Source: Owenweeksia sp. (GTDB lineage Bacteria > Bacteroidota > Bacteroidia > Flavobacteriales > Schleiferiaceae). From it: DNA of 64,000 bases. Positions 9,308 to 50,755 of this stretch are shown here, in pieces (position 1 is the first letter of the stretch; every line of letters starts with the position of its first letter). The position numbers and the translations under genes were made by a program. Under the pieces are notes generated by a model that worked only from the letters and a program-made list of their open reading frames with translations, was not told the origin of the DNA and made no database searches. Where the stretch lies: the NCBI GenBank assembly GCA_002695025.1, contig NZNV01000017.1:434001-498000 (forward strand), written 5' to 3'.

Positions 9308-9317
9308 TCAATCGAAA

Positions 9318-12855: not shown

Positions 12856-12866
12856 AATATACTTCA

Positions 12867-13286: not shown

Positions 13287-13290
13287 ATCC

Positions 13291-14262: not shown

Positions 14263-14275
14263 AAAAGCTGAGGAT

Positions 14276-20707: not shown

Positions 20708-20739
20708 ATTCTTATAATTCAAAATCAATTCAAATCAAC

Positions 20740-23147: not shown

Positions 23148-23158
23148 ACAGCAGAGAA

Positions 23159-24103
23159 ATGGCCAAGATTGCAATTACAGATTACTTTGATACCCCATCC
23201 GCAGAAGAACGCGAGATACTGGGAGATCTGGTAAGCGTTGGTCCGGGACCTGATACGGAAGTACTTTTGGTTTGGCACGATAAGATTGATGCCAGTTACG
23301 TGAAAGACCTTCCGAAACTCAGAGGTGTACAGCGATATGGAGTAGGCTTTGATAACCTGGATGTGGATTATCTCAAATCCAAGGGAATTACCTGCTGCAA
23401 TAATCCCGATTATGGTGTGGATGAGGTCTCCGATACCGCAATGGCCTTTATTATGACAATAAGCCGTGGGGTTTTTCGCTATGATGCCATAGCCCGTAAA
23501 CTAACGGATACCTGGCAGGAGAATATCTTGCCACAGATCAAACGTGCCAATCAAACCAAAGTAGGGGTGATCGGTGCCGGACGTATCGGGACCAGTGTAC
23601 TGCTAAAATGCCAGGCCCTGGGCTTTCAGACGGTGTTCTTCGATCCGTATAAGGAGAGCGGACATGAAAAAGTAGTGAGGGCCAAACGGGTTCACTCGCT
23701 GGACGAACTCCTTGCTGAAGCGGATATAGTCAGTATCCATTGCCCGCTTAGCAAGGCAACATCGGGCATGGTAAACCAGGATTTCATTTCCGCAATGAAG
23801 GATGGTGCTGCATTGGTAAATACCGCGCGGGGCGGTCTCGTGGCAGACCTTGAAGTACTGCACGATAACCTGAAATCAGGAAAGCTATCCTTTGTATACC
23901 TGGATGTGATCCCACAGGAACCTCCGGCTGATAACATGCTTATTGAAGCCTGGAGAGCACAACCGGATTGGCTGCAGGGGCGATTGATCATAAACCCACA
24001 TACCTCGTATTTTTCCCAATCGTCCATTCTTGACCTCAGAAGGGGAGCGGCCAGCAATGCCTTGCGATTGTTTAATGGGGAAAAGCCCCTAAACGTCCTT
24101 TAA
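23159..24103 (+). CDS. D-2-hydroxyacid dehydrogenase (PGDH/PdxB-like)
   Basis: A 314-residue NAD-dependent dehydrogenase with the complete catalytic set: GAGRIG nucleotide motif (139-144), Arg224 (TARGG), Glu254 (PQEPP) and His281 (NPHTSYFS). It would interconvert a 2-hydroxy acid and a 2-keto acid. With a GAPDH-like enzyme in the same run, the pair recalls Epd and PdxB of pyridoxal synthesis (erythrose 4-phosphate to 4-phosphoerythronate to its 2-keto form), but no SerC-type or pdx gene follows, and a cytidylyltransferase is present instead. The starting residues and lack of an ACT domain exclude a full-length serine-pathway SerA. Confidence 0.8.
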   Translation: MAKIAITDYFDTPSAEEREILGDLVSVGPGPDTEVLLVWHDKIDASYVKDLPKLRGVQRYGVGFDNLDVDYLKSKGITCCNNPDYGVDEVSDTAMAFIMTISRGVFRYDAIARKLTDTWQENILPQIKRANQTKVGVIGAGRIGTSVLLKCQALGFQTVFFDPYKESGHEKVVRAKRVHSLDELLAEADIVSIHCPLSKATSGMVNQDFISAMKDGAALVNTARGGLVADLEVLHDNLKSGKLSFVYLDVIPQEPPADNMLIEAWRAQPDWLQGRLIINPHTSYFSQSSILDLRRGAASNALRLFNGEKPLNVL

Positions 24104-25199: not shown

Positions 25200-26543
25200 A
25201 TGTATAGTTTAGCGCTCTTTTTTATTGTACCATTTATCATGTATGCTCTTTATCGCATGACGATAAATCCTATATGGGGTGTAGTATTGATCTTTCTGGT
25301 ACAGCCTTTTGAATCATTTTTCCCGGAGCTGGGAGGTTGGACGGTAGGCCGGATTATCGGAGCACTGACCACTCTTTTGTGGTTAACTTACCTCGCCAGC
25401 CATGCCAAATCCTTCAACCAGCTTTTTAAGTCTGATCTTTTAAAGAGGATTTCCTTATTTCTTTTGTTTGCAACGGTTTCCGCCTTATCCTGGTCAACAG
25501 CTGAAAATGGGACCAATGCCATTGTTGGAGCGGTCACATTTATTCTTTTAGGAATGCTGGCACTTATGCTGGAAAACCTTATCCATGAAAGGAAAAGCCT
25601 GGTAATGATCACCACGGCTATGGCAGTGGCCAGTGCGCTGGCCTGTGTTCCTGCATTGCTGTATATATTGGGCGTAGACTTATATTCAATGGTTGGGACC
25701 CAGGCACCAACAGATCTGAATGAAGAAACCATGCGGGCTCCTACCCTTGGAGGAGGTAACCCTAACTCCCTGGGTATTATTGCCAGAAACGGGATTTTTG
25801 CGGCCGTACTCCTTTTATTGGTTACCCAATCCAAGCTAAGACAGGTCTTGGCCTGGTCATTTTTGTTCTTATGTCTTTCGGGGTTGGTTTTATCCGGATC
25901 CCGTACCAATTTTTATGGTACTATAATCATTATTGCGGTTATGATGGCTTTTGGAGCTTTCAGGATATTTAAGAACAGGTCCCAAATACTGATCACCATC
26001 GGAGGCTTTTTGATCATTGGGATTGGTGCATTCCAATTTGCTCCTGAGCCCGTTAAAGCCCGGCTTCTCCTGGGGGGAGAGGATGAGCGTATTGCTGAAC
26101 GGGCCACGGCACGTATTGGTATAACTGAAGAGCAACAATTGCATGCCCTGGAGTTTGTGAAGGAATACCCGCTATTTGGTGTTGGGCTTGACCGTACCTC
26201 TGTAGAAGCAGGCCCCCAGGGCGCACATGATACCGTAAGTGCCATACTTGGAGAAACCGGGATACTTGGCACCATTGCCTTTACCTGGCTTGTTTTATGG
26301 GCCATGTTCCGTTTGTGGAAGCTTCTTAAAATAACCAGGTCTTTTAAGTTCAAACTATGTGCCTCCCTGCTTTTGGGAATGTTGGTTGCGTTTGTCATTA
26401 TGGGAGTTCGCGGGGGGCTTATCATTCCGTATGACAGGACCTTTTGGTTGGTGTTGGGACTCATTTTACCGGTTAAGCGCATTTTCACCTCCACATCTGT
26501 GGTTAAAAATGCTTCCCAACCAGCTATTCCAAAATCGGCTTAG
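25200..26543 (+). CDS. wzy: Wzy-type polymerase / O-antigen ligase family protein
   Basis: A 447-residue integral membrane protein with about 11-12 helices. A periplasmic loop in the C-terminal half carries HALEFVKEYPLFGVGLDR and then GAHDTVSAILGETGILG, which matches the Wzy_C pattern (G-x-G followed by HN/HD-x and a GETG-like turn) found in both Wzy polymerases and WaaL ligases. Arg-rich segments (SGSRTNFYG) are usual. In this locus, with Wzx and Wzc, a polymerase role is the better choice. It is preceded by a 57-base gap with no clear signal. Confidence 0.78.
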   Translation: MYSLALFFIVPFIMYALYRMTINPIWGVVLIFLVQPFESFFPELGGWTVGRIIGALTTLLWLTYLASHAKSFNQLFKSDLLKRISLFLLFATVSALSWSTAENGTNAIVGAVTFILLGMLALMLENLIHERKSLVMITTAMAVASALACVPALLYILGVDLYSMVGTQAPTDLNEETMRAPTLGGGNPNSLGIIARNGIFAAVLLLLVTQSKLRQVLAWSFLFLCLSGLVLSGSRTNFYGTIIIIAVMMAFGAFRIFKNRSQILITIGGFLIIGIGAFQFAPEPVKARLLLGGEDERIAERATARIGITEEQQLHALEFVKEYPLFGVGLDRTSVEAGPQGAHDTVSAILGETGILGTIAFTWLVLWAMFRLWKLLKITRSFKFKLCASLLLGMLVAFVIMGVRGGLIIPYDRTFWLVLGLILPVKRIFTSTSVVKNASQPAIPKSA

Positions 26544-26599: not shown

Positions 26600-27898
26600 A
26601 TGAATTTAGCAGATAGAATAGCCCTGAGTATCATTAATATCAAGAATACCAGGGTTGTTAGTGAGCTTAAAAAACTCCTGAAATCCCAATCGTGGGACCG
26701 GGCTAAACTTGAAAGACACCAGGTAGGCAGGTTAAGGAAGTTATTGGATTATGCCGCTCAAAATGTGCCTTACTGGCGCGAAATGAACCTCGCCTCAAAA
26801 GTGAAGGAAGGAGGGGATGCCTATTCAATGCTCGCTGATATCCCGGTTCTCACCAAGCCAATAATTCGGGAGCAGGGTGAGAGAATATGGTCTGAAAAAG
26901 AAACCCATTACATTGTGGCAACAACCGGTGGGACTACCGGAAATCCACTTACCATAAGACGTAATTACGAATGTGATGCCATTTCAAAGGCTGCACTGTG
27001 GCGGGCGAGATATGTATGGGGTGTAAGCCCATCGGCACGCGCACTTTACCTTAAGGCTTTTGGAGGAGGTACCCGCAAAGGTAAACTGAAAATGAGGTTA
27101 GCCAACAAAATGGTGGGTGAGGCTTTTCCCAGCTCGGATGAGGACGTGAAAGTGATTACACAAATAATGCATGACTTTAAACCAGTGGCCATGGAGGGAT
27201 ATGCCACCGGCTTATTGGAGTCGGTTAACCGCTCCAGGGTAAAAGAGAATTTTAAGATAGATGTAGTGGTTTCCACCGGAGAAATGTTGTACCCTCATCA
27301 ACGGAAAGCTTTGGAGGAACGTTACTCGGCTAAAGTATATACCTACTATGGCAGCAATGAAATAGGATCCATTGCTTTTGAATGCGAGCACAACAAACTG
27401 CATATCTGTGAAGAACATGTATTGGTAGAAACCCTGAATGAAAAAGGACAGCCTGTAATTAATGAACCGGGAAAAATCGTAGTTACGGATCTTGATAATA
27501 CGGCTATGCCTTTTATCCGCTATGAGCTGGGTGATATTGCGGTAATCAGTGATAAACCTTGTAGTTGCGGAAAGAGTTCCCGGATCATTTCTGAACTGGT
27601 TGGCCGCAGCCAGGATTACCTTTCTGGAAGCACAGGGAGGCGTCTGCAGGCTACCCAGCTGGCGGCCTATCTGAAGGACCTTACTCAGGTAGGGCAACTG
27701 CAGTTTATCCAAACCGGTGAAGACCAGATCAGTTTACAATACGATGGGAAGTCAGCCAATGCAGAAAAAGAAATTGACATGATCCTGAGCCATATCCATA
27801 ATCGTTTGGGAGATCAGGTAGTCGTTACGGTAGACCAGGTGGCGGAAATACCCAAGACCAACCGGGGCAAGCAACCGCTTGTGCTGAGAAAAATTTAA
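26600..27898 (+). CDS. CapK-like AMP-forming ligase (phenylacetate-CoA ligase family)
   Basis: A 432-residue adenylate-forming enzyme. The AMP/ATP-binding loop is TTGGTTGNPL (about 107-116), with YGSNEIGS near residue 250, RYELGD near 310 and a C-terminal KTNRGKQP carrying the catalytic Lys. CapK homologues are frequent in capsule loci, where they are thought to activate a carboxylic acid for attachment to the glycan or to make an amide. The acid is unknown. The next genes encode GNAT-like proteins that may use the activated acid. Confidence 0.78.
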   Translation: MNLADRIALSIINIKNTRVVSELKKLLKSQSWDRAKLERHQVGRLRKLLDYAAQNVPYWREMNLASKVKEGGDAYSMLADIPVLTKPIIREQGERIWSEKETHYIVATTGGTTGNPLTIRRNYECDAISKAALWRARYVWGVSPSARALYLKAFGGGTRKGKLKMRLANKMVGEAFPSSDEDVKVITQIMHDFKPVAMEGYATGLLESVNRSRVKENFKIDVVVSTGEMLYPHQRKALEERYSAKVYTYYGSNEIGSIAFECEHNKLHICEEHVLVETLNEKGQPVINEPGKIVVTDLDNTAMPFIRYELGDIAVISDKPCSCGKSSRIISELVGRSQDYLSGSTGRRLQATQLAAYLKDLTQVGQLQFIQTGEDQISLQYDGKSANAEKEIDMILSHIHNRLGDQVVVTVDQVAEIPKTNRGKQPLVLRKI

Positions 27899-27991: not shown

Positions 27992-28813
27992 ATGACCAAA
28001 GAAGAGTACATAGAAGGCAAAATGAAAAGTGGCTTTAAACTTCATAAAAGTCATGGCGTGTGGTGGGAAACAAGCAGGAAAGGCTATTGCAAGCCCGCTC
28101 TGATGTATGAACCTCTTTCGCCTAAGGAAGCCCGCCCCTCTTTTAGTCAATCCTACATAGGATACAACTACCGCGTTAAAGACAAATCCAAAGCCTCAGG
28201 CTTTTGGATGCCCTTTATTATGGGTGAGGAAGGAATTAAGAACTGGTCACTGGATGATTTGAAGAGTGGTAACCGCAGGAGGCGTATCCGTAAAGGATTG
28301 CGCGAAAATGAAGTTCAGAAGATCGATAATGTTGAGGACCATAAGGAATCCATACGCAGAATATTAAAATCTACCGCCATACGCAATGGCCATGGCTACC
28401 CCCCGGAATTTTATGATGATGACGAAAGCGGGGCCTGGTGGAAGGTGATCACGGACGTGGCTAATTACACCGAATTCTGGTGCTCCTTCAGCGAAGGTAC
28501 CATGTCTGCCTATATCTGCCTCCACGTTATTGGAGATCGTGTAATAGTGGATGGGGTAAAGAGCGACACCGATCTTCTGCAGACCAGCCCTATTGATGCC
28601 ATTGTATATTCCATTCTTACCAACTTGCAGAAAAGGGGAGGTATTAAGGAGATGTGGTACGGGGGGAAAAGTACCCGACCTACACTGGATAGTTTTAAGG
28701 AAAGCTTTGGCTTTGAAATAGTGGAAGTGCCCTTTAAGACAGAAATGCTGGGCGGTATAATGCCTTATCCTAAATTCCTGAATAACTGGATCAAGCGGGG
28801 CGTACCTAAATAG
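27992..28813 (+). CDS. GNAT-like protein of a glycan locus, function unknown
   Basis: A 273-residue protein with no named family that I can be sure of. RRRRIRKGLREN (about 94-105) followed by a GNAT-like region with VDGVKSDTDLL and FKESFGFEIVEVP suggests the FemAB/GNAT group seen at 13291 and 28870. It has no signal peptide and no membrane segments. The 93-base gap before it is the longest within the operon up to 42.5 kb, with no promoter that I recognise. Probably acylates a sugar or sugar amine of this glycan. Confidence 0.5.
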   Translation: MTKEEYIEGKMKSGFKLHKSHGVWWETSRKGYCKPALMYEPLSPKEARPSFSQSYIGYNYRVKDKSKASGFWMPFIMGEEGIKNWSLDDLKSGNRRRRIRKGLRENEVQKIDNVEDHKESIRRILKSTAIRNGHGYPPEFYDDDESGAWWKVITDVANYTEFWCSFSEGTMSAYICLHVIGDRVIVDGVKSDTDLLQTSPIDAIVYSILTNLQKRGGIKEMWYGGKSTRPTLDSFKESFGFEIVEVPFKTEMLGGIMPYPKFLNNWIKRGVPK

Positions 28814-28869: not shown

Positions 28870-29832
28870 ATGGGACTTCGCATTGAAGTGCTCTCCGGAA
28901 AAGAAGCTGAAAATAACGAAGCATTAAATCTCTTTCTCAGGGAAAATGCTACGGTATTCCAGCAGCCTGGTTTCCTTATGGCTGTAGGTAGCGATCTGCA
29001 GGTAGCTGTGGCCTATGAAGATGACAAGATCATTGGAGCATTGCCGCAGGTTATTACCAGGAAATTTGGACTTAAAGCGTCCCATATCCCGAGCTACGGT
29101 TACACCTACGGTCCGGTACTTGCCAAGGAAGGGGTTAAGGATCATTACGATTTGGTTTCCGGTATGCTACAGAGTATTAAGAAATACTCGCTGGTAGAGT
29201 GGAAATTATTGATTCCGGATAACGATATTATTACCTATAACCAGTTGGGCGCAAACATTGTAGCCAGTCAGACTCATATTGTTAAACATAAACCTGGATT
29301 TGATCCGGGCTCCATTCATTCGTCCAAAAGAAGGTATCTCAAAAAGCTGCTTAAATCACTCGAGAGTGGTGAGATCATTCTGAAGGAAGGTAAGGAGTGT
29401 AAAGACGATTTGCTATGGCTACAGGCTGAAACGGGAAAAAAGAGCGGTTTTAATTCCAGCCAATCCGTGCTCAAGAAGATCATGGATTCCTTGAATGATG
29501 AACAGGCGTATGCGCTAGTGCTCTCTACCCCGGATGGAAAACCACTTTCCGGGGCATACTGTCCCTATGATACCTACAGTGCCTACCACCTGGTAAATGC
29601 CTCGGTGAATCATGAAGATAATTTATTGAATCGCTCTAATATATTGGCTACCTACCTGGCTATCAACAAGGCTATGGAACTCGGACTCAATTTTGATTTT
29701 GAGGGCAGTAATATACCCGGTGTGGCCAATTATTATCGCCTTATGGGAGGAGAGCCCACCTTGATGTACCGCATCCAGATACCTAACTCCATGCTGGGTA
29801 AAGCATTTTTTGCAGCCATGCATTTAAAGTAA
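28870..29832 (+). CDS. FemAB-type GNAT acyltransferase
   Basis: A 320-residue protein. The opening LNLFLRENATVFQQPGFL, the SKRRYLKKLLKSLESGE segment and the late LNFDFEGSNIPGVANYYRLMGG are characteristic of the FemAB/BioF2-like group; the FDFEGS turn is repeated at 56610 in a related gene. Such proteins usually add aminoacyl or acyl groups to amino sugars. It follows the GNAT-like gene by 56 bases and precedes a glycosyltransferase. Donor and acceptor cannot be told from the sequence. Confidence 0.68.
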   Translation: MGLRIEVLSGKEAENNEALNLFLRENATVFQQPGFLMAVGSDLQVAVAYEDDKIIGALPQVITRKFGLKASHIPSYGYTYGPVLAKEGVKDHYDLVSGMLQSIKKYSLVEWKLLIPDNDIITYNQLGANIVASQTHIVKHKPGFDPGSIHSSKRRYLKKLLKSLESGEIILKEGKECKDDLLWLQAETGKKSGFNSSQSVLKKIMDSLNDEQAYALVLSTPDGKPLSGAYCPYDTYSAYHLVNASVNHEDNLLNRSNILATYLAINKAMELGLNFDFEGSNIPGVANYYRLMGGEPTLMYRIQIPNSMLGKAFFAAMHLK

Positions 29833-29850
29833 ACACTTAACATCTCCATA

Positions 29851-31005
29851 GTGTCAAGGAAAAAATTAAAGATCTGCCATATCACCAGTATGCACGACTG
29901 GCAGGACGACCGCATTTTTCAAAGGGCTTGTGCCGGCCTGGCCAGGCTTGGTCATGAAGTACACCTGGTGGCTGTTTGCGAAGAAGATCAGAAGCCCGGT
30001 AAATTTGAGTCTTTGAAAGTTACGGTTCACCTTTTACCCCATCGCTCAGGTCGGAAAAGGCGTTGGAATGGTTCTAAGGACGTTATTAAAGCAGCGGTTC
30101 ACCTTCAGGCCGAGGTATACGAATTCCACGATCCGGACCTCCTGCCTCACATCGGTCTGCTCAAGAAAAAAGTCCCCGGCTCTGCGGTTATTTATGATAT
30201 CCATGAGAACTATGCCGGGCGTTTTGCCAATTGGGGCTTACCCGCATTTTTAGGCGATATTTTCCGCTCGTACGAGAAAAAGGTGATCAACGGGCTGGAC
30301 GGGATCACTGTAGTGTCCGAGTCTATGAGTAGCTTATTCAAGGGAGTAAGAACCCCGGTTGAAATTACCCGTAACAGCACAGATATAGAGCGGTTAAGAG
30401 GCATTGAACTTCCTGAACCCGATGCAGATTCGGCCCCGGTCATTGTAACCTCCGGCTCGCATTCCCACGCCCGGAACTGTCTTCAAACGGTTAAAGCCTT
30501 ACCTTACCTGGTGCAAGATCTCACAGTAAATCCGGTGATGCAGTTTGTGGGCCGCTACCTGGACAACATGGATCAGGAAATGGAAGAACAAGCTAAAGCA
30601 GATGGCACTTCAGATTATCTTAAGATTGATGGGATGATGCCTTGGGAAGAGAACTTCAAAAGGATTGCCAAGGCCTATTGTGGTTGTGTGTTTTACGAGG
30701 ATAACCCGAATAACCGGGTGGGTATTCCCAACCGCCTTTTTGAATACATGTACTGCGGGATACCGGTAGTGGTTTCTGATTTCCCGGAGCTTAAAAAAGT
30801 AGTTACGCAGGCCCAATGCGGTGTGGTGGTCAATTCAGAAGATCCCAGGGATATCGCCCGTGGCCTGGAGGAATTGTTAAGTGATCCCGAAAAGGCCAGA
30901 GAGATGGGCCGGAAGGGAAGGCAGGCTATGGAAGGTACCTATGGCTATCACGTGGACCTTGAAATACTGGAAAATTTCTATTACAAGCTTTTAAAGCGTT
31001 CATGA
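29851..31005 (+). CDS. Family 4-type glycosyltransferase
   Basis: A 384-residue GT-B enzyme. The N-terminus KICHITSMHDWQDDRIFQRAC and IYDIHENY (about residue 113) are typical of the GT4 subgroup in Bacteroidota glycan loci. The C-terminal donor site has PNRLFEYMYCGIPVVVSDFPELKKVV, the usual E-x7-E-type motif. The start is GTG at 29851. It overlaps the C5-epimerase gene by 4 bases (ATGA), so the two are probably coupled. A uronic acid transferase would be a sensible role beside a uronosyl epimerase, but nothing in the sequence shows this. Confidence 0.83.
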   Translation: MSRKKLKICHITSMHDWQDDRIFQRACAGLARLGHEVHLVAVCEEDQKPGKFESLKVTVHLLPHRSGRKRRWNGSKDVIKAAVHLQAEVYEFHDPDLLPHIGLLKKKVPGSAVIYDIHENYAGRFANWGLPAFLGDIFRSYEKKVINGLDGITVVSESMSSLFKGVRTPVEITRNSTDIERLRGIELPEPDADSAPVIVTSGSHSHARNCLQTVKALPYLVQDLTVNPVMQFVGRYLDNMDQEMEEQAKADGTSDYLKIDGMMPWEENFKRIAKAYCGCVFYEDNPNNRVGIPNRLFEYMYCGIPVVVSDFPELKKVVTQAQCGVVVNSEDPRDIARGLEELLSDPEKAREMGRKGRQAMEGTYGYHVDLEILENFYYKLLKRS

Positions 31006-31940
31006 GCCTGGCCCATAAACTGAAGAAAATATCCATCTACTTTGTGCCGGGAAAGCCCTATTGGCGGTCTGTAAAGCATGGAGACTGGAAAGTGCAATCC
31101 GCCATAGGCCCTTTTATGGGTATGCATATCAAGGATCGTCTGTATGACAATCACTATGATAAATTTGACGAAGAGGGCCTGCCCATCCGTATGGCCGAAG
31201 GAAAGCGGGTTTACAATTACACCACTATTTGCTCCTATGCGCTGGCCAATTACGAGCTTTACCTGGAAACAGGGGATAGGAAGTATACAGAACCTCTCTT
31301 CAAAACCCTTGATTTCCTGAAACGGAAGCATGAAACCACCCCTTATAACGGTATCGTATTTCCGGGTAAGCAAGATTCACTTTCAGCCATGAACCAGGGG
31401 GAAGCCCTGGCGGTGATTGCACGCTGCTACGAACTGGATCCGCGTGAAGAACTGGTGGAATTAGCACGGAAGATTACGCTTGCGTACCAATACAAAGTAG
31501 AAGAACAAGGGGTGCTCGGTCAATTTGAGGCTTTAAAAAATACCCGGTGGTACGAGGAAAAAGCGGTCATACCCGGTAAACACATCCTTAATGGAATGTG
31601 CTACGCTACGGTAGGTCTTAGAGACATCAGTATAGCCATGTCTCAGCTTAAGGAGGCCGAAGAGCTCTGGCGTGCAGGGCTACAGTATATAAAACAAGCC
31701 CTTCCTCTCTATGATACCGGCAGCTGGACTTATTATTGGGTGGCAGATAGGGATCCCCACTATATCGCCAGCATGATGTACCACAACCTCCATATTTGCC
31801 AGCTGAACTACCTGGCAAAGGTTACGGGTGATGAAGAGTTTGCCCAGTGGGCCGGGAAGTTTGAAAAATATTCTGGCTCATCTTTAAAGCGGATGTCAGC
31901 CGGTTTACAGATCATTAAGGGAAAGTGGCAGAAGCGATGA
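31002..31940 (+). CDS. Glucuronyl/uronosyl C5-epimerase homologue (GLCE C-terminal family)
   Basis: A 312-residue (alpha/alpha) barrel-type protein. The catalytic C-terminal part of animal D-glucuronyl C5-epimerase is recognisable: SAMNQGEALAVIARCY near residue 127, HILNGMCYATVGLRD near residue 197, LPLYDTGSWTYYW near 236 and MMYHNLHICQLNYLAKVTGD near 259-278. Human GLCE ends, as I recall, with a matching YDTGSGT..Y and WDYHTTHINQL block. These enzymes turn D-glucuronic into L-iduronic units within the polymer. No signal peptide is seen, so it would act in the cytoplasm on lipid-linked chains. It sits between two glycosyltransferase genes, both with ATGA overlaps, 2-4 kb before a deacetylase-like and a sulfotransferase gene. 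Confidence 0.78.
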   Translation: MSLAHKLKKISIYFVPGKPYWRSVKHGDWKVQSAIGPFMGMHIKDRLYDNHYDKFDEEGLPIRMAEGKRVYNYTTICSYALANYELYLETGDRKYTEPLFKTLDFLKRKHETTPYNGIVFPGKQDSLSAMNQGEALAVIARCYELDPREELVELARKITLAYQYKVEEQGVLGQFEALKNTRWYEEKAVIPGKHILNGMCYATVGLRDISIAMSQLKEAEELWRAGLQYIKQALPLYDTGSWTYYWVADRDPHYIASMMYHNLHICQLNYLAKVTGDEEFAQWAGKFEKYSGSSLKRMSAGLQIIKGKWQKR

Positions 31941-33100
31941 AAATCCTGATGATCACCGGGGGTTTCCCTTCCGAGGATAAACCCCAGAAGAGTATCTTCA
32001 ACCTGCGGGCAGCCAAATCCTTGTCACAGGTGGCGGATCTTAAGGTGGTACACTATCGCTTTTATAAACCGGGACGGCCACTTAAAGAAGAGTTGGATTA
32101 TGAAGGTGTAAAGGTTATCCGGCTGAACCTTCCTTATGTTCCGGAAAAGAACCGCGCCATTAAACTTATCCGTCTCCGGCTGTGGATATACCTGACCCGA
32201 AACATTCTTAGGAAACAGCTCCGGTCAACCAACATAATTCATTCCGTGGGTTTGGATGTTGGAGGAATGATAGCATCTCAGCTGTCCAAAAAAACCGGTA
32301 TACCTCATTTTGCACAGATCATTGGTAGCGATATCAATTTCCACATGGATGAACTGAAAGGCTCATTCCTGGAGCAACAATGGACCCGTGGTACCAAAGC
32401 TGCCATCTGCAACAGCAAAGCCATTGCTGGCGATATTCAACAAAAATACCCGGGATTGCCTACTTATACAGCTTATCGCGGAACGGATCTTGAAAAATTC
32501 AAGCCCCATGAGCGGCAGGACGATAAACATTTAAGAATACTTTTCCTGGGCGGTTTTGCCCATCGGTCCTCTACCGATTTTGGCAGTAATCTCAAAGGTG
32601 GAGAAACGCTCAAAAAGGCATGGGAGCTTCTCTTGGGTAAAATGAAGCTGGAAGCCATGCTACAATTGGGTGGCCCTGAAAGTAAATCGGAAAAGATCAT
32701 AGCGTGGAAACAGTCGCTTCCCTCACCACAGACTGTGGAAACATTGGGCGAGCTACGCCCGGACGAAGTACCTACATACATCAATACGGCAGACATAGTT
32801 GTAGTACCCAGCCTTTCAGAAGGTTTGCCCAACGTAGCTGTTGAAGCCTGCGCGGCAGGAAAACTTGTGATAGCTACCAGGGTGGGTGGAATACCCGAAG
32901 TGATAGAAGATGGGAAAACAGGAATACTCATCAATGCTGCAGATACCAATGCTCTGGCCGATGCCCTGGCCAAAGCCATTTCCTCTTATAGGGAGATAGA
33001 AGCTATGCGAAGGGCGGCCAGAAAACGTATGGAAGCTGACTTTGACAGTTCGCAGTACGCGCAACGATTAATGAACATCTATAAATCCGAAATAAAATGA
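31937..33100 (+). CDS. Family 4 glycosyltransferase
   Basis: A 388-residue GT-B enzyme with MKILMITGGFPSEDKPQ at the start, YRGTDLEKFKP in the linker, and the donor-site run VVVPSLSEGLPNVAVEACAAGKLVIATRVGGIPEVI, the classic GT4 (E-x7-E) pattern. The ATG at 31937 overlaps the epimerase stop by 4 bases (ATGA); an earlier in-frame start at 31925 is possible. It is followed, again with a 4-base overlap, by the WecB-like epimerase. Sugar specificity unknown. Confidence 0.88.
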   Translation: MKILMITGGFPSEDKPQKSIFNLRAAKSLSQVADLKVVHYRFYKPGRPLKEELDYEGVKVIRLNLPYVPEKNRAIKLIRLRLWIYLTRNILRKQLRSTNIIHSVGLDVGGMIASQLSKKTGIPHFAQIIGSDINFHMDELKGSFLEQQWTRGTKAAICNSKAIAGDIQQKYPGLPTYTAYRGTDLEKFKPHERQDDKHLRILFLGGFAHRSSTDFGSNLKGGETLKKAWELLLGKMKLEAMLQLGGPESKSEKIIAWKQSLPSPQTVETLGELRPDEVPTYINTADIVVVPSLSEGLPNVAVEACAAGKLVIATRVGGIPEVIEDGKTGILINAADTNALADALAKAISSYREIEAMRRAARKRMEADFDSSQYAQRLMNIYKSEIK

Positions 33101-34155
33101 AGATACTGACAATTGTTGGTGCCCGTCCGCAGTTCGTAAAAGCAGCGGTAGTTTCAAGGGTTATCAGGGAAAGGTCTGGTATTGAAGAACTTTTAGTACA
33201 CACCGGGCAGCACTTTGATGCGAATATGTCCGATGTGTTTTTCCAGGAAATGAACATCCCGCACCCGGCTATCAATCTGGACATCAATAGCATGTCCCAC
33301 GGAGCCATGACCGCGCGAATGATGGAAAAACTGGAGGAAGTAGCCATACGGGAAAAGCCTGATCTGTTCCTGATCTATGGAGACACCAATTCCACCCTGG
33401 CGGGGGCATTGGTCGCCTCTAAATTGCACATTCCCATTGGCCATGTGGAGGCCGGTTTACGCAGCTTCAATATGAAAATGCCAGAGGAGATCAACCGTAT
33501 ACTTTCGGACCGGGTAAGTAAATGGCTTTTTTGTCCTACGCAAACTGCGGTGGACAACCTGCACAGGGAAGGTTACGATAACTTCCAATCACAAATTTCC
33601 CTAAGTGGAGATGTGATGTATGATGCAGCCTTGTACTATTCATCAAGGTTGGATGAGGTACCTTCCAAAGTGGAAATGCCGGATAAATCCTATGCTCTGG
33701 TGACTTTACACCGGGAAGAAAACACCGATGACGAGGGAACCCTCAGGCGACTGATGGGCATACTGGAGAATATGGATGAAGAGGTAGTGTTGCCTTTGCA
33801 CCCGCGTACCCGCAAGAAATTGGAAGGTTTCGGTATAACCCCGCGCATCAAAACCATTGACCCGGTTGGCTATTACGATATGATCCGTCTGCTGAAGAAC
33901 TGTTCCTTTGTATTGACCGACAGTGGCGGCTTGCAGAAGGAGGCATTCTTCTTTGAAAAGTTCTGCATCACCCTGCGCGAACAAACCGAATGGGTGGAAC
34001 TGGTGGATAATGGGGTCAATTTTATATGCGGCAGCGATGCGGATAAAGTAAAGAAAGCCCTTGATCAGATCCGCCACACCCCCTTCCCGAAAGACCTTCA
34101 GTTGTACGGTGATGGAAAGGCCGGTGAAAAGATCATTGATGTGCTTGGGGCATGA
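33097..34155 (+). CDS. wbpI: Non-hydrolysing UDP-HexNAc 2-epimerase (WecB/WbpI family)
   Basis: A 352-residue enzyme with VGARPQFVKAA (8-18), HTGQHFDANMSDVFF, GDTNSTLAGAL, HVEAGLRSFN and TDSGGLQKEA, all marks of the non-hydrolysing 2-epimerases. WecB makes UDP-ManNAc; the WbpI branch inverts C2 of UDP-GlcNAc3NAcA to UDP-ManNAc3NAcA. The locus also has WbpB- and WbpD-like genes (41032, 41999) and a WbpO-like dehydrogenase, so the WbpI role is favoured but WecB is possible. Flanked on both sides by 4-base overlaps. Confidence 0.85.
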   Translation: MKILTIVGARPQFVKAAVVSRVIRERSGIEELLVHTGQHFDANMSDVFFQEMNIPHPAINLDINSMSHGAMTARMMEKLEEVAIREKPDLFLIYGDTNSTLAGALVASKLHIPIGHVEAGLRSFNMKMPEEINRILSDRVSKWLFCPTQTAVDNLHREGYDNFQSQISLSGDVMYDAALYYSSRLDEVPSKVEMPDKSYALVTLHREENTDDEGTLRRLMGILENMDEEVVLPLHPRTRKKLEGFGITPRIKTIDPVGYYDMIRLLKNCSFVLTDSGGLQKEAFFFEKFCITLREQTEWVELVDNGVNFICGSDADKVKKALDQIRHTPFPKDLQLYGDGKAGEKIIDVLGA

Positions 34156-34958
34156 AGGTAATCATCTCGCATGATATTGACCATCTGCACTGGACAGATC
34201 ATTGGCATGATCTGTTTATACCCAAGTATGTGGTAAAACATATCCTTTTCCTGTTGAGTGGAAAGATAGGGTTTGGCTTATTTTCCAAAAGGCTGGGCTT
34301 ATTGTTCAGGAACCGCCAACACCGTTTACCGGAACTGATAGTCTTTAACCGGGAAAACGGGGTGGAGTCCAACTTCTTTTTGGGTACCAATAACGGTTTG
34401 GGCTTATCGTATTCATTGAAGAAAGCCCATCAAACTATTCAATACTTGAAAGGCTTTGCGGATGAATTCCCGGTAGGGGTGCATGGTATTTCCTATACCA
34501 ATCAGGAAGGGATCAACCAGGAGAAAAGGCGCTTTGATGCCTCAGGTTTTAAAGCAGAAGGCTTGCGTATGCACTACCTGAGGAATAATGAAGATACTCT
34601 GAATTACCTGGCCCGGGCGGGCTATACGCATGATTCCACTACTTATGAGCTTAAGGACCCTTACCTCGTAGAAGGAAGTATGCTGGAGTTTCCCGTAAGT
34701 ATCATGGATGTTTACGCAGTTGACGACACGGATGCCACCTTTGAGAAAGGCAAACAAAAGACACTGGAGGTAATAGCGGAAGCGGAAGCCAGCAACCTGG
34801 AATATTTTACGGTGATCTTCCACGATAATTATTTTGACCCGGCTTATCCGGCCCATTATGAATGGTACAAATGGTTGATCCGGTATTTCAAAAAGCGAGG
34901 TTTTAATTTTACTACTTTTGACCGTGCCTGTAAAGAATTAGCCCTTGAAAAGCCCTGA
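34152..34958 (+). CDS. Polysaccharide deacetylase-like (NodB-fold) protein
   Basis: A 268-residue protein. IISHDIDHLHW at the N-terminus holds a His-Asp-x-Asp set in the place of the CE4 first motif; VGVHGISY near residue 113, RMHYLR near 139 and the late VIFHDNYFDP (about 225) resemble the metal-site and second His motifs. It has no signal peptide, so it would act in the cytoplasm. It is followed, with a 14-base overlap, by a sulfotransferase of NDST style. In animals one protein (NDST) removes acetyl from GlcNAc and then N-sulfates; here the two functions could be on two adjacent genes. Catalytic competence needs a structure-based check, as the motifs are loose. Confidence 0.65.
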   Translation: MKVIISHDIDHLHWTDHWHDLFIPKYVVKHILFLLSGKIGFGLFSKRLGLLFRNRQHRLPELIVFNRENGVESNFFLGTNNGLGLSYSLKKAHQTIQYLKGFADEFPVGVHGISYTNQEGINQEKRRFDASGFKAEGLRMHYLRNNEDTLNYLARAGYTHDSTTYELKDPYLVEGSMLEFPVSIMDVYAVDDTDATFEKGKQKTLEVIAEAEASNLEYFTVIFHDNYFDPAYPAHYEWYKWLIRYFKKRGFNFTTFDRACKELALEKP

Positions 34959-35751
34959 CTTTATCCACATCGGACCGGGACGTACCGGCACTACCTACAT
35001 CTTTAAAATGCTGGGGCAGCACCCCGGCATCAATCTTCCCAATGAAAAGGAGATCAACTTCTTTAACCGCAATTACAGCAAAGGGCTGGACTGGTATTTT
35101 AAGAAGTTCCCGGAAGGAGGCTTAACGGGTGAGTTTACCAACCTGTATTTCTACCATCCTGAGTATGTAGAGCTGATCAGAGATGAGCTGAAGGATATCA
35201 AGGTCATCACGGTAATGCGGAATCCCTTTGACCGGATGATGTCCAACTTCATGTACCAGAAGAGGAGTGGTTCCATTCCTCCCAACATGAGTTTTAATGA
35301 AGCCCTGGAAAAATACCCTGACCTTGGCGATCAGGATAAATTCGGGATCTACCTGAAGCAGTATCAAAAATGGTTCGGGGATCGCCTGTTTGCGGGCGTT
35401 TACGATGACCTTTCGCAAAACCCGGATGATTTTTATAAGCGCTTGTTCAATTTCCTGGGGCTGGATACTGTGCAATTGGAAGGTGTGGATGATAAGGTAA
35501 ACCAAAGTGTGGCCCTTAAATCATCGGTGCTGGCGGCTCCCATACGCCTTGGAGCTAATGCCATGCGGAAACTGGGAATGGTAGGTATGCTGGACAACAT
35601 TAAGAACAGTTCTTTCACCAGGTCCATACTCTATAAAAAAGCGCAAAAGGATGCGGTGGAATATCCTGAATGGCTGCGTATGAACATCAATGCGGATATT
35701 GACCGGCTGTCGGAAGTGCTGGAACGTGATTTGAGCCATTGGAAGAAATGA
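34945..35751 (+). CDS. Heparan-type sulfotransferase (NDST/3-OST-like)
   Basis: A 268-residue sulfotransferase. The PAPS loop is IGPGRTGTTYIFKMLGQHP (residues 9-27) and is followed by EKEINFFNRNYSKGLDWYFKKFP in the place where animal NDST has an E-x-I-x-FFN..NY.KG.DWY..FFP block and 3-OSTs a similar one. The 3'-phosphate motif is VMRNPFDRMMSNFMYQ. The middle part YQKWFGDRLFAGVYDDLSQNP and FLGLD are also of the Sulfotransfer_1 type. The TTG start at 34945 overlaps the deacetylase-like gene by 14 bases. It should N- or O-sulfate a sugar in the glycan. It is distinct from the sulfotransferase at 15213. Confidence 0.8.
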   Translation: MKSPDFIHIGPGRTGTTYIFKMLGQHPGINLPNEKEINFFNRNYSKGLDWYFKKFPEGGLTGEFTNLYFYHPEYVELIRDELKDIKVITVMRNPFDRMMSNFMYQKRSGSIPPNMSFNEALEKYPDLGDQDKFGIYLKQYQKWFGDRLFAGVYDDLSQNPDDFYKRLFNFLGLDTVQLEGVDDKVNQSVALKSSVLAAPIRLGANAMRKLGMVGMLDNIKNSSFTRSILYKKAQKDAVEYPEWLRMNINADIDRLSEVLERDLSHWKK

Positions 35752-36761
35752 TGACAGAAGGACACGTGGCCAAGGATAAAGTTTCCATTGTTTTGGCTGT
35801 CTACAATGAGGAGGCTATCGTGCGTGATGCGGTCAATTCGCTACTGAAGCAGGAAGCCTGGGACTTTGAGGTGGAAATATTGGTGGTGGATGGTAATTCT
35901 ACCGACCGTACCTCGAAGATCCTGAAGGAAATGGCCGAACAGAATGCAGGACGCATTAAATACGTATTCAATGAAAAGCGCATTGCACCGGCAGCCTTTA
36001 ACCTGGGTATCAAAGAAGCCAGTGGAAATTACATTGCTATTTTTGGTTCGCATGCAAAGTATGCTGACAATTACCTGAGTGTGTGCCTGGAGGAAATCCA
36101 TAAAACAGGCGCTGTGGGTTGTAGTGGTACGGTAATACCCAGGATGGAGGAAGATAACCAGGAGTCCGAACTTTGCCTTAGCATTCTTACTTCACGTATA
36201 GGAGTTTCCGGAGGGTCTTTCAGGACCCGCTCATCCGGCTTTGCCGAAAGTATTCCTTACGGAGTATTCAAAAAAGAGGTTTTTGATAAAGTAGGGTGGT
36301 ATGACGAACGACTGGTGCGGAACCAGGATAACGATATGAATGCCCGCATCAATAAAGCAGGGTATAAACTGTATATCACGGATCGTACACATGCCTATTA
36401 TTACCCAAAAAGCAACCTTAAAGCGCTGAAGAAGTATGCTTTTAATACGGGTTTATGGAACGCTAAATCCTTAAAATTCGGCTCTTACACCTTGCGCTTA
36501 TTACACTTTGTTCCTTTTTTCTTTTTGCTGTTTAACATTCTGCTGATAGCCACTTTGGTGCTATCCGTAATTTATGATACTTATTACTTGGTTCTCCCAC
36601 TACTTTTGGTGTACCTGTTATATTGGGTGTTGATAGTATTTGAGACCAGTAAGCTCCGTTTCGAATTTAAGGAGAACCGCCTGGCTTTTCCGGTTGCGGT
36701 TTATTCCTTTCACCTGAACTATGGCTTCGGGACATTAAAAGGCTTTCTTTCCAACCGCTGA
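35748..36761 (+). CDS. Family 2 glycosyltransferase with C-terminal membrane segments (ExoA-like)
   Basis: About 337 residues. The GT-A domain begins VSIVLAVYNEEAIV with VVDGNSTDRTS; the acceptor-site block is VGWYDERLVRNQDNDMNARI, typical of the succinoglycan ExoA group. Two to three hydrophobic helices near residues 250-310 would anchor it at the membrane. I take the ATG at 35748, which overlaps the sulfotransferase stop (ATGA); the longer frame begins with a TTG nine bases earlier. Sugar unknown. Confidence 0.85.
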   Translation: MMTEGHVAKDKVSIVLAVYNEEAIVRDAVNSLLKQEAWDFEVEILVVDGNSTDRTSKILKEMAEQNAGRIKYVFNEKRIAPAAFNLGIKEASGNYIAIFGSHAKYADNYLSVCLEEIHKTGAVGCSGTVIPRMEEDNQESELCLSILTSRIGVSGGSFRTRSSGFAESIPYGVFKKEVFDKVGWYDERLVRNQDNDMNARINKAGYKLYITDRTHAYYYPKSNLKALKKYAFNTGLWNAKSLKFGSYTLRLLHFVPFFFLLFNILLIATLVLSVIYDTYYLVLPLLLVYLLYWVLIVFETSKLRFEFKENRLAFPVAVYSFHLNYGFGTLKGFLSNR

Positions 36762-36772
36762 AAATATTCTAT

Positions 36773-38005
36773 ATGAGCAACCCAAAAAAAATTCCCTTCT
36801 CACCCCCTTACATTGATGAGGAGGTAGAACGCCAGGTACTGGAATCCTTACGTTCAGGCTGGATCACTACCGGTCCAAAGGTAAGGGCCCTGGAAGGTGA
36901 AATAGCCTCTCTGGCCGGACTTGAACATGCATTGTGTGTGAATTCGGCCACTTCAGGGATGATGCTGGCCTTACACTGGTATGGGGTAGGGCCGGGAGAT
37001 GAGGTGATCATCCCGGTATATACCTATGTGGCTACGGCATTGGTCGTGCAACACTTGGGTGCCACTCCCGTTATGGTGGATATTCGTGACGATTTTAATA
37101 TTAACCCGCAAAAGATCCGTGAAGCCATTACTCCTAAAACCAAGGCTATTGTGCCGGTGGATTTTGGCGGTTGGCCTTGCGACTACGATGCCATCCGTGA
37201 GATTGTGGAGGAGGAGAAAGGTAAATTTCAGCCCGCCAACGATACCCAGGAAAAGCTGGGTAGAATATTACTAATGGCCGATGCTGCACATTCCATCGGA
37301 GCTGCCTATAAAGGCAAACCCAGCGGTAGCCAGGCTGATCTTACCGTGTTTTCATTACATGCCGTTAAGAATGTAACCAGTGCCGAAGGAGGAGCTATTT
37401 GCATGAATATGCCTGAACCCTTTGATAATGCAGAGATCTATGCCACCATGCGCCTATGGTCTTTGAACGGGCAAACCAAGGATGCCTTTACCAAATCACA
37501 GGGAGGTAGCTGGCGATACGATATTGTATACCCCGGTTTTAAGATCAATATGCCGGATGTGTGTGCGGCCATTGCGTTGGCACAAATTGGTAAATACAAA
37601 GATGAGCTATGGCCGGAGCGCAGGAAGATATTTGACCTGTATACCAGTCTCTTTGAAAATGAGGAATGGGCAGACCTCCCTCCTGGTAAGGAGGGCAATA
37701 CGGAGTCTTCCTATCACCTCTTTGCTTTGCGGATAAAGCCCCGCAATAGTGAATTAAGGGATAGGGTTATCCATCTGGCAGCCGAAGACGGCATTGCTCT
37801 GAACGTTCATTTTATACCCTTGGCCGAACTCAGTATTTTTAAGGAAAAAGGATTTAAGCTATCGGACTTTCCCATGGCTAAAGACCAGTTTGAGGGAGTA
37901 ATTACCCTACCCATATATCCTCAATTGGAAGAGGAAGATTGCCGGAGAATATTTACTACGATCAAACAAGTAGTTACCGAATACCAGGATGTGGCGATTA
38001 ATTGA
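36773..38005 (+). CDS. DegT/DnrJ/EryC1 sugar aminotransferase
   Basis: A 410-residue PLP enzyme, opening with IPFSPPYIDEEVERQVLESLRSGWITTGPKV, the style of 4-amino-sugar aminotransferases (ArnB, WcfR). PLP phosphate-binding turn VNSATSGM, Asp in ADAAHSIGA, PLP lysine in FSLHAVKNVTSAEGG. There is an insertion around residues 140-165 (VEEEKGKFQPANDTQEKL) longer than in PglE. It overlaps the following initiating transferase by 17 bases; in Bacteroides fragilis PSA a comparable pair (WcfR with WcfS) makes and transfers a 4-amino-4,6-dideoxy sugar. This is inference by position. It could also be the missing WbpE. Confidence 0.82.
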   Translation: MSNPKKIPFSPPYIDEEVERQVLESLRSGWITTGPKVRALEGEIASLAGLEHALCVNSATSGMMLALHWYGVGPGDEVIIPVYTYVATALVVQHLGATPVMVDIRDDFNINPQKIREAITPKTKAIVPVDFGGWPCDYDAIREIVEEEKGKFQPANDTQEKLGRILLMADAAHSIGAAYKGKPSGSQADLTVFSLHAVKNVTSAEGGAICMNMPEPFDNAEIYATMRLWSLNGQTKDAFTKSQGGSWRYDIVYPGFKINMPDVCAAIALAQIGKYKDELWPERRKIFDLYTSLFENEEWADLPPGKEGNTESSYHLFALRIKPRNSELRDRVIHLAAEDGIALNVHFIPLAELSIFKEKGFKLSDFPMAKDQFEGVITLPIYPQLEEEDCRRIFTTIKQVVTEYQDVAIN

Positions 38006-38588
38006 TCTGGTGGCCGCAACAGTGGGCGTGATCGTACTTTCCCCACTGTACGTGGTGGGGTTTTTAATGGTAGTGCTTGATGATGGATTCCCCGTCTTCT
38101 TTCAGCAGGAACGCCTTGGAAAGGGAGGGAATGTATTTAGGCTATTGAAGTTCAGGACTATGTATCGCGATGCACATAAAAGAGGGCTCATTACTGTTGG
38201 GGGAAGGGATCCCCGGGTAACCTGCTCAGGCTATTTTCTCCGTAAATCCAAAATGGATGAATTACCCCAGCTTTTTAACGTCATCAAAGGTGATATGAGC
38301 CTGGTGGGTCCCCGCCCGGAAGTTCAGAAGTATGTAGACCTGTACCCGGAGGATTTCAACTATCTCCTTAAAGTTCGCCCGGGTATGACCAGTCCTGCTT
38401 CTATTGCTTTTAGTAATGAAAACGAAATACTTTCTGCCCAGGATAAGCCGGAGCAATACTACCGTGAAGTGGTACTTCCAGAAAAAATAGCCCTGGACAA
38501 GAGCTGTGTGAGCAACCGTAGCCTGGGTCACTATTTTTCAGTGATCTTTCAGACACTTGGGAAGGTAGCATCCGGAAATAAGCATTAA
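37989..38588 (+). CDS. Undecaprenyl-phosphate sugar phosphotransferase (PglC/WcfS-like)
   Basis: A 199-residue monotopic phosphoglycosyl transferase. An N-terminal hydrophobic re-entrant helix (VAATVGVIVLSPLYVVGFLMVVL) is followed by FRLLKFRTM, RKSKMDELPQLFNVIKGDMSLVGPRPEV and VRPGMTSPASI, the core motifs of the Bac_transf family with the catalytic Asp-Glu in SKMDE. It starts repeat-unit assembly by moving a sugar-1-phosphate to undecaprenyl phosphate. It overlaps the aminotransferase by 17 bases and is followed without a gap by a second member of the same family. Confidence 0.87.
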   Translation: MWRLIDLVAATVGVIVLSPLYVVGFLMVVLDDGFPVFFQQERLGKGGNVFRLLKFRTMYRDAHKRGLITVGGRDPRVTCSGYFLRKSKMDELPQLFNVIKGDMSLVGPRPEVQKYVDLYPEDFNYLLKVRPGMTSPASIAFSNENEILSAQDKPEQYYREVVLPEKIALDKSCVSNRSLGHYFSVIFQTLGKVASGNKH

Positions 38589-41031: not shown

Positions 41032-42009
41032 ATGAAAAAGTTTGCTCTTATCGGAGCAGCGGGCTACATAGCCCCTCGCCATCTTAAAGCCATAAAGGAA
41101 ACCGGGAATAACCTGGTTGCCGCTTTAGATCCGTTTGATAGTGTGGGAATTATGGATAGTTATTTTCCCAATGCCGATTTCTTTGTTGAATTTGAACGCT
41201 TTGATCGTCATATAGAAAGGCTGAAGCGTGACAATCAACCCATCGACTATGTTTCAGTATGTTCTCCCAATTATCTCCATGATAGTCATATACGTTTTGG
41301 GCTCCGTAACTCATCGGATGTAATTTGCGAAAAGCCTATCGTACTGAATCCCTGGAATATTGAAGCGCTTGAAGAGATCGAAAAGGAAACCGGAAAGAAT
41401 ATATATTCCATACTTCAGCTTCGCTTACACCCGTCTATAGCTGCTTTAAGGGAAAAGGTACAAAATGGTCCTGCAGATAAGATCTACGATGTAGACCTTA
41501 CCTACCTCACTTCGCGCGGGCATTGGTATTATACATCCTGGAAAGGAGATATTCATAAGTCAGGCGGCATTGCAACCAATATAGGAGTGCATTTTTATGA
41601 CATGCTTACCTGGGTTTTTGGCGATGTAAAGAGCAATACGGTACATGTGCATACCCATGATCGTGCCTCCGGGTACCTGGAGTTAGAACGTGCCAGGGTG
41701 AGGTGGTTCCTTAGTATTAACGAAGAAACTATCCCCGAAGAGGTTCGGAAAACCGGGAAAACCACTTATCGTTCTATCCTTATTGAAGGTGAGGAGCTGG
41801 AGTTTAGTGATGGTTTTACGGATCTTCACACCAGGAGCTATGAAGACATCCTGGCCGGAAAAGGCTTCAGGATTTCCGAAACGCTGTCTTCCATACGTAT
41901 TGTACACGAAATTCGTCATCAGGAACCGGCCGGGCTTAAAGGAGAATACCACCCATTGGCCAATCTAAAACTGAGTAAGCACCCCTTTAATAAGAACCAT
42001 GGAAAATAA
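41032..42009 (+). CDS. wbpB: UDP-GlcNAcA 3-dehydrogenase (WbpB/WlbA-like, Gfo/Idh/MocA family)
   Basis: A 325-residue oxidoreductase. It opens [25 protein letters not shown]; the motifs [29 protein letters not shown] and later [16 protein letters not shown] follow WbpB of P. aeruginosa and WlbA of Bordetella closely. The enzyme oxidises C3 of UDP-GlcNAcA, the first step towards diacetamido-uronic acids. The partner acetyltransferase WbpD-like gene overlaps its 3' end by 11 bases. An aminotransferase of WbpE type is not obvious in the window; those at 16049 and 36773 are candidates. Confidence 0.9.
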
Positions 42010-48211: not shown

Positions 48212-48221
48212 TCGTTACCCT

Positions 48222-50722: not shown

Positions 50723-50755
50723 AATAGATAATTACAAACGAACTGAACAACATAC

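Follow-up and report, generated by a model that had tools for sequence, protein, structure and literature searches.

Whether a bacterial glycan operon that encodes homologues of three heparan-modifying enzyme classes is a prokaryotic counterpart of heparan processing is the question raised by this locus of Owenweeksia sp., a marine-type member of the Bacteroidota (assembly GCA_002695025.1, contig NZNV01000017.1). The window, i.e. the whole stretch of DNA analysed, comprises 64,000 nt (positions 434,001–498,000, forward strand). The three genes of interest are hereafter referred to as EPI (GLCE-type C5-epimerase, 31002–31940), DAC (NodB-like deacetylase, 34152–34958), and ST (PAPS-dependent sulfotransferase, 34945–35751). 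These genes and all others given coordinates below are encoded on the forward strand.

Organization of the locus

EPI (312 aa) follows a GT4-type glycosyltransferase gene (GT4_29; 29851–31005), which overlaps the EPI start by 4 bases, and precedes a second GT4-type glycosyltransferase gene (31925–33100), a gene for a non-hydrolysing UDP-GlcNAc 2-epimerase of the WecB/WbpI type (33097–34155; TIGR00236, 310 bits), DAC (268 aa), ST (268 aa), and a GT2-type glycosyltransferase gene whose product has membrane segments at the C-terminus (35739–36761). An earlier note had described the three genes as adjacent; this applies to DAC and ST, which overlap by 14 bases as reported, but EPI is separated from DAC by the second GT4 gene and the 2-epimerase gene. 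Every joint in the run from EPI to ST is an overlap of 4–16 bases. In a sister species, the entire locus is syntenic with the same gene order, and EPI, DAC, and ST show pN values of 0.09–0.12 and pS values of 0.72–0.81 between the two species, indicating purifying selection. Overlapping joints, synteny, and purifying selection together exclude the possibility that these are chance ORFs. Upstream of the GT4_29 gene are genes for a CapK/PaaK-like adenylate-forming enzyme (26600–27898), a GNAT-like protein (27992–28813; the second of the DAC module described below, with a homologue in the same position in locus L083), and a FemAB-like acyltransferase (28870–29832), the last identified by motif reading and by a weak FemAB match of a relative.

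The surrounding genes include those for a Wza-type polysaccharide export protein (275–1114), a Wzz/tyrosine-kinase-type chain-length protein (1118–3574), a Wzx-type flippase (10983–12467), a Wzy/O-antigen-ligase-type polymerase (25200–26543), and an initiating phosphoglycosyl transferase of the PglC/WbaP type (37989–38588). CysC, CysD, and CysN genes and a DASS-type anion transporter gene are located directly upstream in the same orientation, likewise in the sister species; the 3′ end of cysN occupies positions 1–226, and the other three genes lie just 5′ of the window start. Flippase, polymerase, export, PAPS, and sulfotransferase genes, i.e. the components of a Wzx/Wzy-type sulfated polysaccharide locus, are thus all present. 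The cluster also holds a sulfotransferase gene besides ST (15168–16049; PF13469, 1.5e-7).

Genes for a TviB-like UDP-GlcNAc 6-dehydrogenase (4848–6125; 587 bits to TviB vs 104 to TuaD), a WbpB/WlbA-type UDP-GlcNAcA 3-dehydrogenase (41032–42009; 3oa2, 8e-111), and a WlbB-type acetyltransferase (41999–42574; 3mqg, 5e-68) suggest, as judged from sequence, that the polymer may contain (di)acetamido-uronic acids. The uronate of the repeat unit would then be of the GlcNAcA, GlcNAc3NAcA, or ManNAc3NAcA type. This assignment is weak because, of 13 outside EPI loci, only 2 have WbpB-type genes close by (with WlbB- and WecB-type genes in L042 and with a WecB-type gene in L045). A UDP-glucose dehydrogenase encoded elsewhere in the genome, outside the cluster, could serve as the source of GlcA. 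A literature search for L-gulo-configured diacetamido uronate epimerases returned nothing useful.

Properties of EPI, DAC, and ST

EPI matched PF06662 (C5-epim_C) at 7.5e-35 in the Pfam search, scoring 120.6 bits against a curated cut-off of 23.3, and human GLCE (6hzz) at 2.8e-20 in the PDB sequence search. It contains both the YDTGSW and YHNLHICQL blocks. The EPI model, which was built from two sequences and is of low confidence (pLDDT only 59), matched GLCE entries at Z 19.2–19.5, with the next fold at 12.0; the fold assignment therefore relies on the sequence match and on this gap in Z. Both the homology to the C-terminal domain of GLCE proposed previously and the placement in the GLCE fold are supported by these results. 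Approximately 237 of the 312 residues align to GLCE 158–613, and EPI does not have the full GLCE architecture (N-terminal beta-hairpin and beta-sandwich). The catalytic set of GLCE is given as E499, Y500, N510, Y560, and Y578 (PMC13308652), and four of the five are retained in EPI as E186, N197, Y245, and Y260 (human E499, N510, Y560, and Y578). Regarding the catalytic tyrosines, whose presence the note had made a test of its reading, the equivalents of Y560 and Y578 are thus present, whereas Y500 is replaced by Lys187. A scan of viral contigs with EPI yielded no match.

DAC showed no Pfam match and no real PDB sequence match; PF01522 did not recognize it, and a 42% relative scored 0.0015, below the curated cut-off. 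Its AlphaFold model (pLDDT 88.1) nevertheless has the barrel fold of polysaccharide deacetylases (3rxz, E 2.8e-7, Z 19.0), in agreement with its earlier description as a NodB-like deacetylase. Other matches of the model were ArnD (8t0j, Z 17.2), the WbmS-type structure 3hft (Z 13.4), and the deacetylase domain of NDST1 (Z 13.3). Residues H7, D8, D10, H111, R139, H141, D161, and H224 are invariant in an alignment of 24 sequences; the metal-site region combines the invariant D8 and D10 with H111-x3-Y115, where H-x3-H is usual.

ST matched PF00685 at 6.3e-15 in the Pfam search and NDST1 (1nst) at 8.5e-13, and in the latter match the EINFFN-RNYSKGLDWY block of NDST1 was aligned to EIQFFNGHNYHKGIDWY, which confirms the block similarity recognized previously. 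The bit scores were 51.8 for NDST1, 51.4 for the bacterial sulfotransferase 3rnl, and 47 for 3-OST3. ST was expected to group with heparan sulfotransferases; NDST1 is indeed among its closest solved relatives, but 3rnl is equally close, and these near-equal scores imply that the NDST-like block does not identify ST as an N-sulfotransferase. The catalytic Glu of NDST1, E642, corresponds to E36 of ST. R13 of ST occupies the position of NDST1 K614, which contacts PAPS (PMC10864358).

Distribution of the gene set in other genomes

The gene neighbourhoods of the 14 closest outside relatives of DAC, from several phyla, and of 13 outside EPI loci were compared. None of the 14 DAC loci contained an adjacent sulfotransferase gene or an epimerase gene. 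A FemAB-like acyltransferase gene was found in 11 of the 14 but in none of the 13 EPI loci (Fisher p 3e-5), and a GT4_29-type companion of DAC was present in 13 of the 14. A DAC module comprising GT4_29, FemAB-like, DAC, and GT2_35 genes recurs across phyla. Linkage of these particular EPI, DAC, and ST subfamilies was seen in one genus only. The claim that no bacterial locus combines the three classes was nonetheless too strong: in two other sampled Bacteroidota genomes (G203 and G290), epimerase, sulfotransferase, and deacetylase genes lie within ~18 kb, the latter two belonging to other subfamilies. A literature search for this gene combination returned nothing useful.

The apparent absence of ST near EPI loci in a single-protein phmmer search (no match) was a sensitivity artefact; a whole-genome Pfam search found a sulfotransferase near EPI in three genomes. 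One of them, G141, was not counted as a glycan locus: its EPI is of the lipoprotein type, the sulfotransferase gene is ~8 kb away, and the surroundings are not those of a glycan cluster.

It is conceivable that the three classes share the operon merely through their commonness in Bacteroidota polysaccharide clusters, acting on different residues with no joint logic. The membership of DAC in an older module lacking EPI and ST, the rarity of ST or DAC near EPI homologues, most of which have neither nearby, and the presence of several more sulfotransferases in the genome are all in line with this explanation. However, CysCDN and two sulfotransferases are fixed at the locus in both species, and the three classes occur together again in G203 and G290; we regard it as rather unlikely.

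The predicted glycan and its relation to known systems

We favour, with some reserve, the explanation that this region makes up the tailoring part of an O-antigen-like, Wzx/Wzy-dependent capsule or exopolysaccharide locus, which would produce a sulfated, C5-epimerised repeat-unit polysaccharide, probably as a sulfated acidic sugar coat. The kinds of enzyme are known, and their combination is new. EPI, DAC, ST, and the second sulfotransferase all lack signal peptides and TM segments, which in a Wzx/Wzy locus points to tailoring on lipid-linked repeat units rather than on a lumenal polymer. The repeat unit would be started on undecaprenyl phosphate by the PglC/WbaP-like enzyme and extended by the GT4 and GT2 enzymes. 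On this cytosolic lipid-linked unit, EPI would epimerise a hexuronic acid at C5 by means of a GLCE-like proton relay (Glu186/Tyr260), and DAC would remove an N-acetyl group, after which the FemAB-like protein would probably re-acylate the freed amine with another acyl group. ST and the second sulfotransferase would transfer sulfate, with PAPS supplied as donor by the neighbouring CysC-CysD-CysN, more likely to oxygen than to nitrogen, with N-sulfation a possibility in view of the direct DAC-ST overlap. The completed unit would then be flipped by Wzx and polymerised by Wzy. There is an archaeal precedent in which a short lipid-linked glycan is epimerised, by the different enzyme Agl32, and then sulfated (PMC13308652).

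In a heparan-like scheme, DAC would free GlcNAc amines, ST would N-sulfate them, and EPI would convert neighbouring GlcA to IdoA, giving an N-sulfated iduronate glycan. The enzyme classes, their presence in one operon, sulfation, and the GLCE-type epimerase proposed in the earlier note all stand, and further points in favour are the 14-base overlap of DAC and ST, which overlap in the sister species as well, the position of NDST1 as the top match of ST by a hair with the E642 equivalent kept, the true GLCE fold of EPI with its proton-relay Glu and Tyr, the UDP-glucose dehydrogenase in the genome, and the N-sulfated exopolysaccharide reported in the bacterium Pontiella (PMC7356697). The proposal of a dedicated heparan-type set is not supported: in the 14 loci compared, DAC relatives keep company with FemAB-like genes (11 of 14) and not with sulfotransferases or epimerases, DAC is closer to generic deacetylases than to NDST1, ST is just as near 3rnl, Tyr500 is replaced, the uronate genes of the cluster are of aminouronate type with UDP-glucose dehydrogenase encoded outside it, and the tailoring enzymes have no signal peptide or TM segment. 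No exostosin-type domain (GlcA-GlcNAc copolymerase) was seen among the proteins scanned, although glycosyltransferase specificity is not readable from sequence. An N-sulfated iduronate glycan is thus improbable, and we give similarly little credence to a heparan-like glycan (N-deacetylated, N-sulfated, and C5-epimerised) made cytosolically on lipid-linked units before polymerisation, with the NDST activities on separate genes. Lys187, which may reflect altered specificity or lost activity, is shared by both congeners, the position being Tyr in most EPI relatives and Ala in L045, but that EPI is an inactive GLCE-fold protein with a binding or other isomerase role is very improbable, considering its four retained catalytic residues, both proton-transfer residues among them, and the purifying selection on its gene.

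Prokaryotic GAG-type C5-epimerases have hardly been characterised, one bacterial case being cited in PMC12834895 and PMC4432689, where a GLCE relative is reported for Bermanella marisrubri after Raedts 2013. Sulfated GAG-like polymers of bacteria, for their part, have been reported without identified tailoring enzymes. One conserved operon that joins a GLCE-type epimerase, PAPS synthesis, and sulfotransferases provides a testable gene set for sulfated, epimerised uronate glycans, and its cytosolic, soluble relatives of GLCE and GAG sulfotransferases could serve in making heparin-like material.

Among known systems, the N-sulfated GAG-like exopolymers of Pontiella (PMC7356697) resemble the predicted product in sulfate, probable hexosamines, and a sulfotransferase-glycosyltransferase cluster, but belong to another phylum, and the word "epimerase" is absent from that text. 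The Halobacterium Agl32 N-glycan pathway (PMC13308652) likewise epimerises a uronate at C5 within a short glycan that is then sulfated, whereas Agl32 is a different protein without the GLCE catalytic residues and its glycan is attached to protein. DAC has its fold and an O-antigen-type gene context in common with NodB-like deacylases of the WbmS and ArnD types (3hft, 8t0j) from the O-antigen and lipid A pathways, and HD(I/V)D...G(V/I)H...R.HYL is common to DAC and its distant relatives; a literature search on WbmS returned nothing useful. DAC nevertheless belongs to a separate subfamily, recognizable by its RMHYL and GVHGI motifs, of which we know of no characterised member. NDST1 (1nst, 8ccy, 9f6z) has the sulfotransferase family and E642 equivalent of ST and the NodB-like barrel of DAC, but it is a single polypeptide, whereas two overlapping genes are present here, K614 is Arg in ST, and generic bacterial enzymes are at least as close to each of the two proteins. 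Finally, EPI shares with GLCE (6hzz, 4pw2) the C5-epim_C domain, the fold, and the equivalents of Glu499, Asn510, Tyr560, and Tyr578, but GLCE exceeds 500 aa, whereas EPI is a shorter protein with Lys in place of Tyr500 and without the N-terminal dimerisation part, is predicted to be cytosolic, and is encoded in a bacterial polysaccharide operon.

Gene organization of the polysaccharide locus

The three ORFs singled out in the earlier note were confirmed and lie in a run of seven overlapping genes (29851-36761), all on the + strand, which encode a GT4 (29851-31005), the GLCE-type C5-epimerase EPI (31002-31940), a second GT4 (31925-33100), a UDP-GlcNAc 2-epimerase (33097-34155), the NodB-like deacetylase DAC (34152-34958), the sulfotransferase ST (34945-35751), and a GT2 (35739-36761). 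All three had been described as adjacent, but EPI is separated from DAC by the second GT4 and 2-epimerase genes. Because Wza- and Wzz-type proteins, Wzx, and Wzy are also encoded in the window, this is regarded as a Wzx/Wzy polysaccharide locus. A second sulfotransferase gene is located at 15168-16049, and genes for a DASS-type transporter, CysC, CysD, and CysN (3' end at base 226) lie immediately upstream of the polysaccharide genes in the same orientation. Synteny with a sister species (deposited as uncultured Cryomorphaceae bacterium) is maintained gene for gene from the transporter to ~61.5 kb. Between the two, pN (EPI, 0.086; DAC, 0.118; ST, 0.087) is well below pS (0.72-0.81, synonymous sites being near saturation), showing that each of these genes is subject to purifying selection. 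Overall, the operon is genuine and conserved, includes a GLCE-type epimerase gene, and is assigned to a sulfated polysaccharide.

Within the cluster, TviC-, NeuB-, NeuC-, and PseF-like genes (6164-10010) represent a nonulosonic-acid (sialic-acid-type) pathway. The region 12460-17699 probably encodes a 3-acetamido-3,6-dideoxyhexose pathway, with an FdtA-like gene (12460), its small neighbour (12867), a QdtB/FdtB-like aminotransferase gene (16049; 5u1z, 2.7e-124; QdtB, 6e-110), and a hexapeptide transferase gene (17130). A five-gene cassette in the locus (20084-24103; 83-95% identity to the sister species), encoding a HAD phosphatase, a GAPDH-like dehydrogenase, a cytidylyltransferase, an FAA-hydrolase-like protein, and a D-2-hydroxyacid dehydrogenase-like protein, suggests an unusual CMP/CDP-activated building block. 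The polysaccharide genes are followed directly by the gene for an XrtF-type exosortase (TIGR04128, 136 bits) with its small neighbour (46449-47481), which possibly connect the glycan with sorted surface proteins; a MacB-type ABC transporter set with an HlyD-type adaptor (47531-51844) lies downstream.

Epimerase, deacetylase, and sulfotransferase

The enzyme classes had been assigned correctly, as indicated by Pfam C5-epim_C (EPI, 7.5e-35), the deacetylase-like model of DAC, and PF00685 (ST, 6.3e-15). EPI matches human GLCE in sequence (2.8e-20), and its low-confidence model (pLDDT 59) ranks five GLCE entries top (Z 19.2-19.5; next fold, 12.0), in agreement with the proposed fold. The catalytic residues of GLCE are E499, Y500, N510, Y560, and Y578 (PMC13308652); a review assigns proton transfer to Tyr578 and Glu499 (PMC12834895). 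Counting along the EPI-human GLCE alignment places E186, K187, N197, Y245, and Y260 at these positions; four of the five residues are thus retained, but Tyr500 is replaced by Lys in both the window and the sister species, whereas most Bacteroidota relatives have Tyr. No signal peptide was predicted in EPI, unlike the relatives in loci L040, L043, and L044, which have lipoprotein-like N-termini and form a second, probably exported class of C5-epimerase-like proteins; those in L043 and L044 sit outside any glycosyltransferase cluster.

DAC had no match in Pfam and none by sequence in PDB. Its confident model (pLDDT 88, from a 24-sequence alignment) best matches polysaccharide deacetylases (3rxz, Z 19.0; ArnD, 17.2; WbmS, 13.4; NDST1 deacetylase domain, 13.3). 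H7, D8, D10, H111, R139, H141, D161, and H224 are invariant in the alignment; in the metal motif, the usual position for the second His is not occupied by His.

A block in ST had been noted as matching one in NDST. It is common to the wider family, since ST scores 51.8 bits with NDST1, 51.4 with a bacterial sulfotransferase, and 47 with 3-OST3; ST E36 aligns to NDST1 E642 and R13 to K614. At L135 (13893-14546), ST's nearest outside relative (35% identity) is encoded close to a PIG-L-type N-deacetylase (PF02585, 1.4e-22), possibly another deacetylase/sulfotransferase pairing.

Distribution and gene company

A strong EPI match was present in 13 of the 394 Bacteroidota genomes sampled, not counting the genome that holds the window; when the window's family was searched further, the sister species was the only other strong carrier. 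The statement that no bacterial locus is known to combine all three on adjacent genes goes too far, as two of the 13 genomes carry them within ~18 kb: G203 (EPI, a THDVD-type DUF7033 protein, and two sulfotransferases, on mixed strands; L037) and G290 (EPI, a PF01522 deacetylase, and a PF13469 sulfotransferase; L042). Their members belong to other subfamilies than those of the window, and the combination may therefore have arisen more than once.

DAC relatives (35-47% identity) were compared at 14 outside loci from Bacteroidota, Campylobacterales, Nitrospirae, Planctomycetota, Spirochaetes, and an archaeal bin. None of the 14 contains EPI or an adjacent sulfotransferase; whole-genome searches, with inferred matching of contig records, placed a PF13469 protein on the DAC contig in only two, ~12 and 27 kb off. 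Relatives of the FemAB-like acyltransferase (28870-29832) occur in 11 of these loci, mostly adjoining DAC, versus 0 of 13 EPI loci (Fisher p 3e-5), and relatives of the GT4 at 29851 in 13 of the 14 DAC loci. One locus (L083) retains the order Wzy, CapK-like, GNAT, GT4, GT4, FemAB-like, DAC, GT2. This gene company indicates that DAC belongs to an older module that, in the window locus, seems to have acquired EPI, the 2-epimerase, and ST. It also makes de-N-acetylation followed by re-acylation more likely than N-sulfation.

Candidate substrate and comparison with heparan processing

The NDP-sugar dehydrogenase in the cluster is TviB-like (587 bits, versus 104 for UDP-glucose dehydrogenase-like), and the 41032 and 41999 products are WbpB-like (8e-111) and WlbB-like (5e-68), both enzyme types of the diacetamido-uronate pathway. 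WbpB/WlbB/WecB-type genes also lie beside EPI in L042, as do WbpB- and WecB-type genes in L045, which makes an aminouronate a plausible substrate. Nearby products are WlaL-like (42911) or resemble PglE (39845) and PglC/WbaP (37989). GlcA is also possible, since a TuaD-like UDP-glucose dehydrogenase is encoded elsewhere in the genome, outside the cluster. As a prokaryotic counterpart of heparan processing, the locus offers a weak parallel in N-deacetylation/N-sulfation and backbone, but a suggestive one in its epimerase and sulfation.
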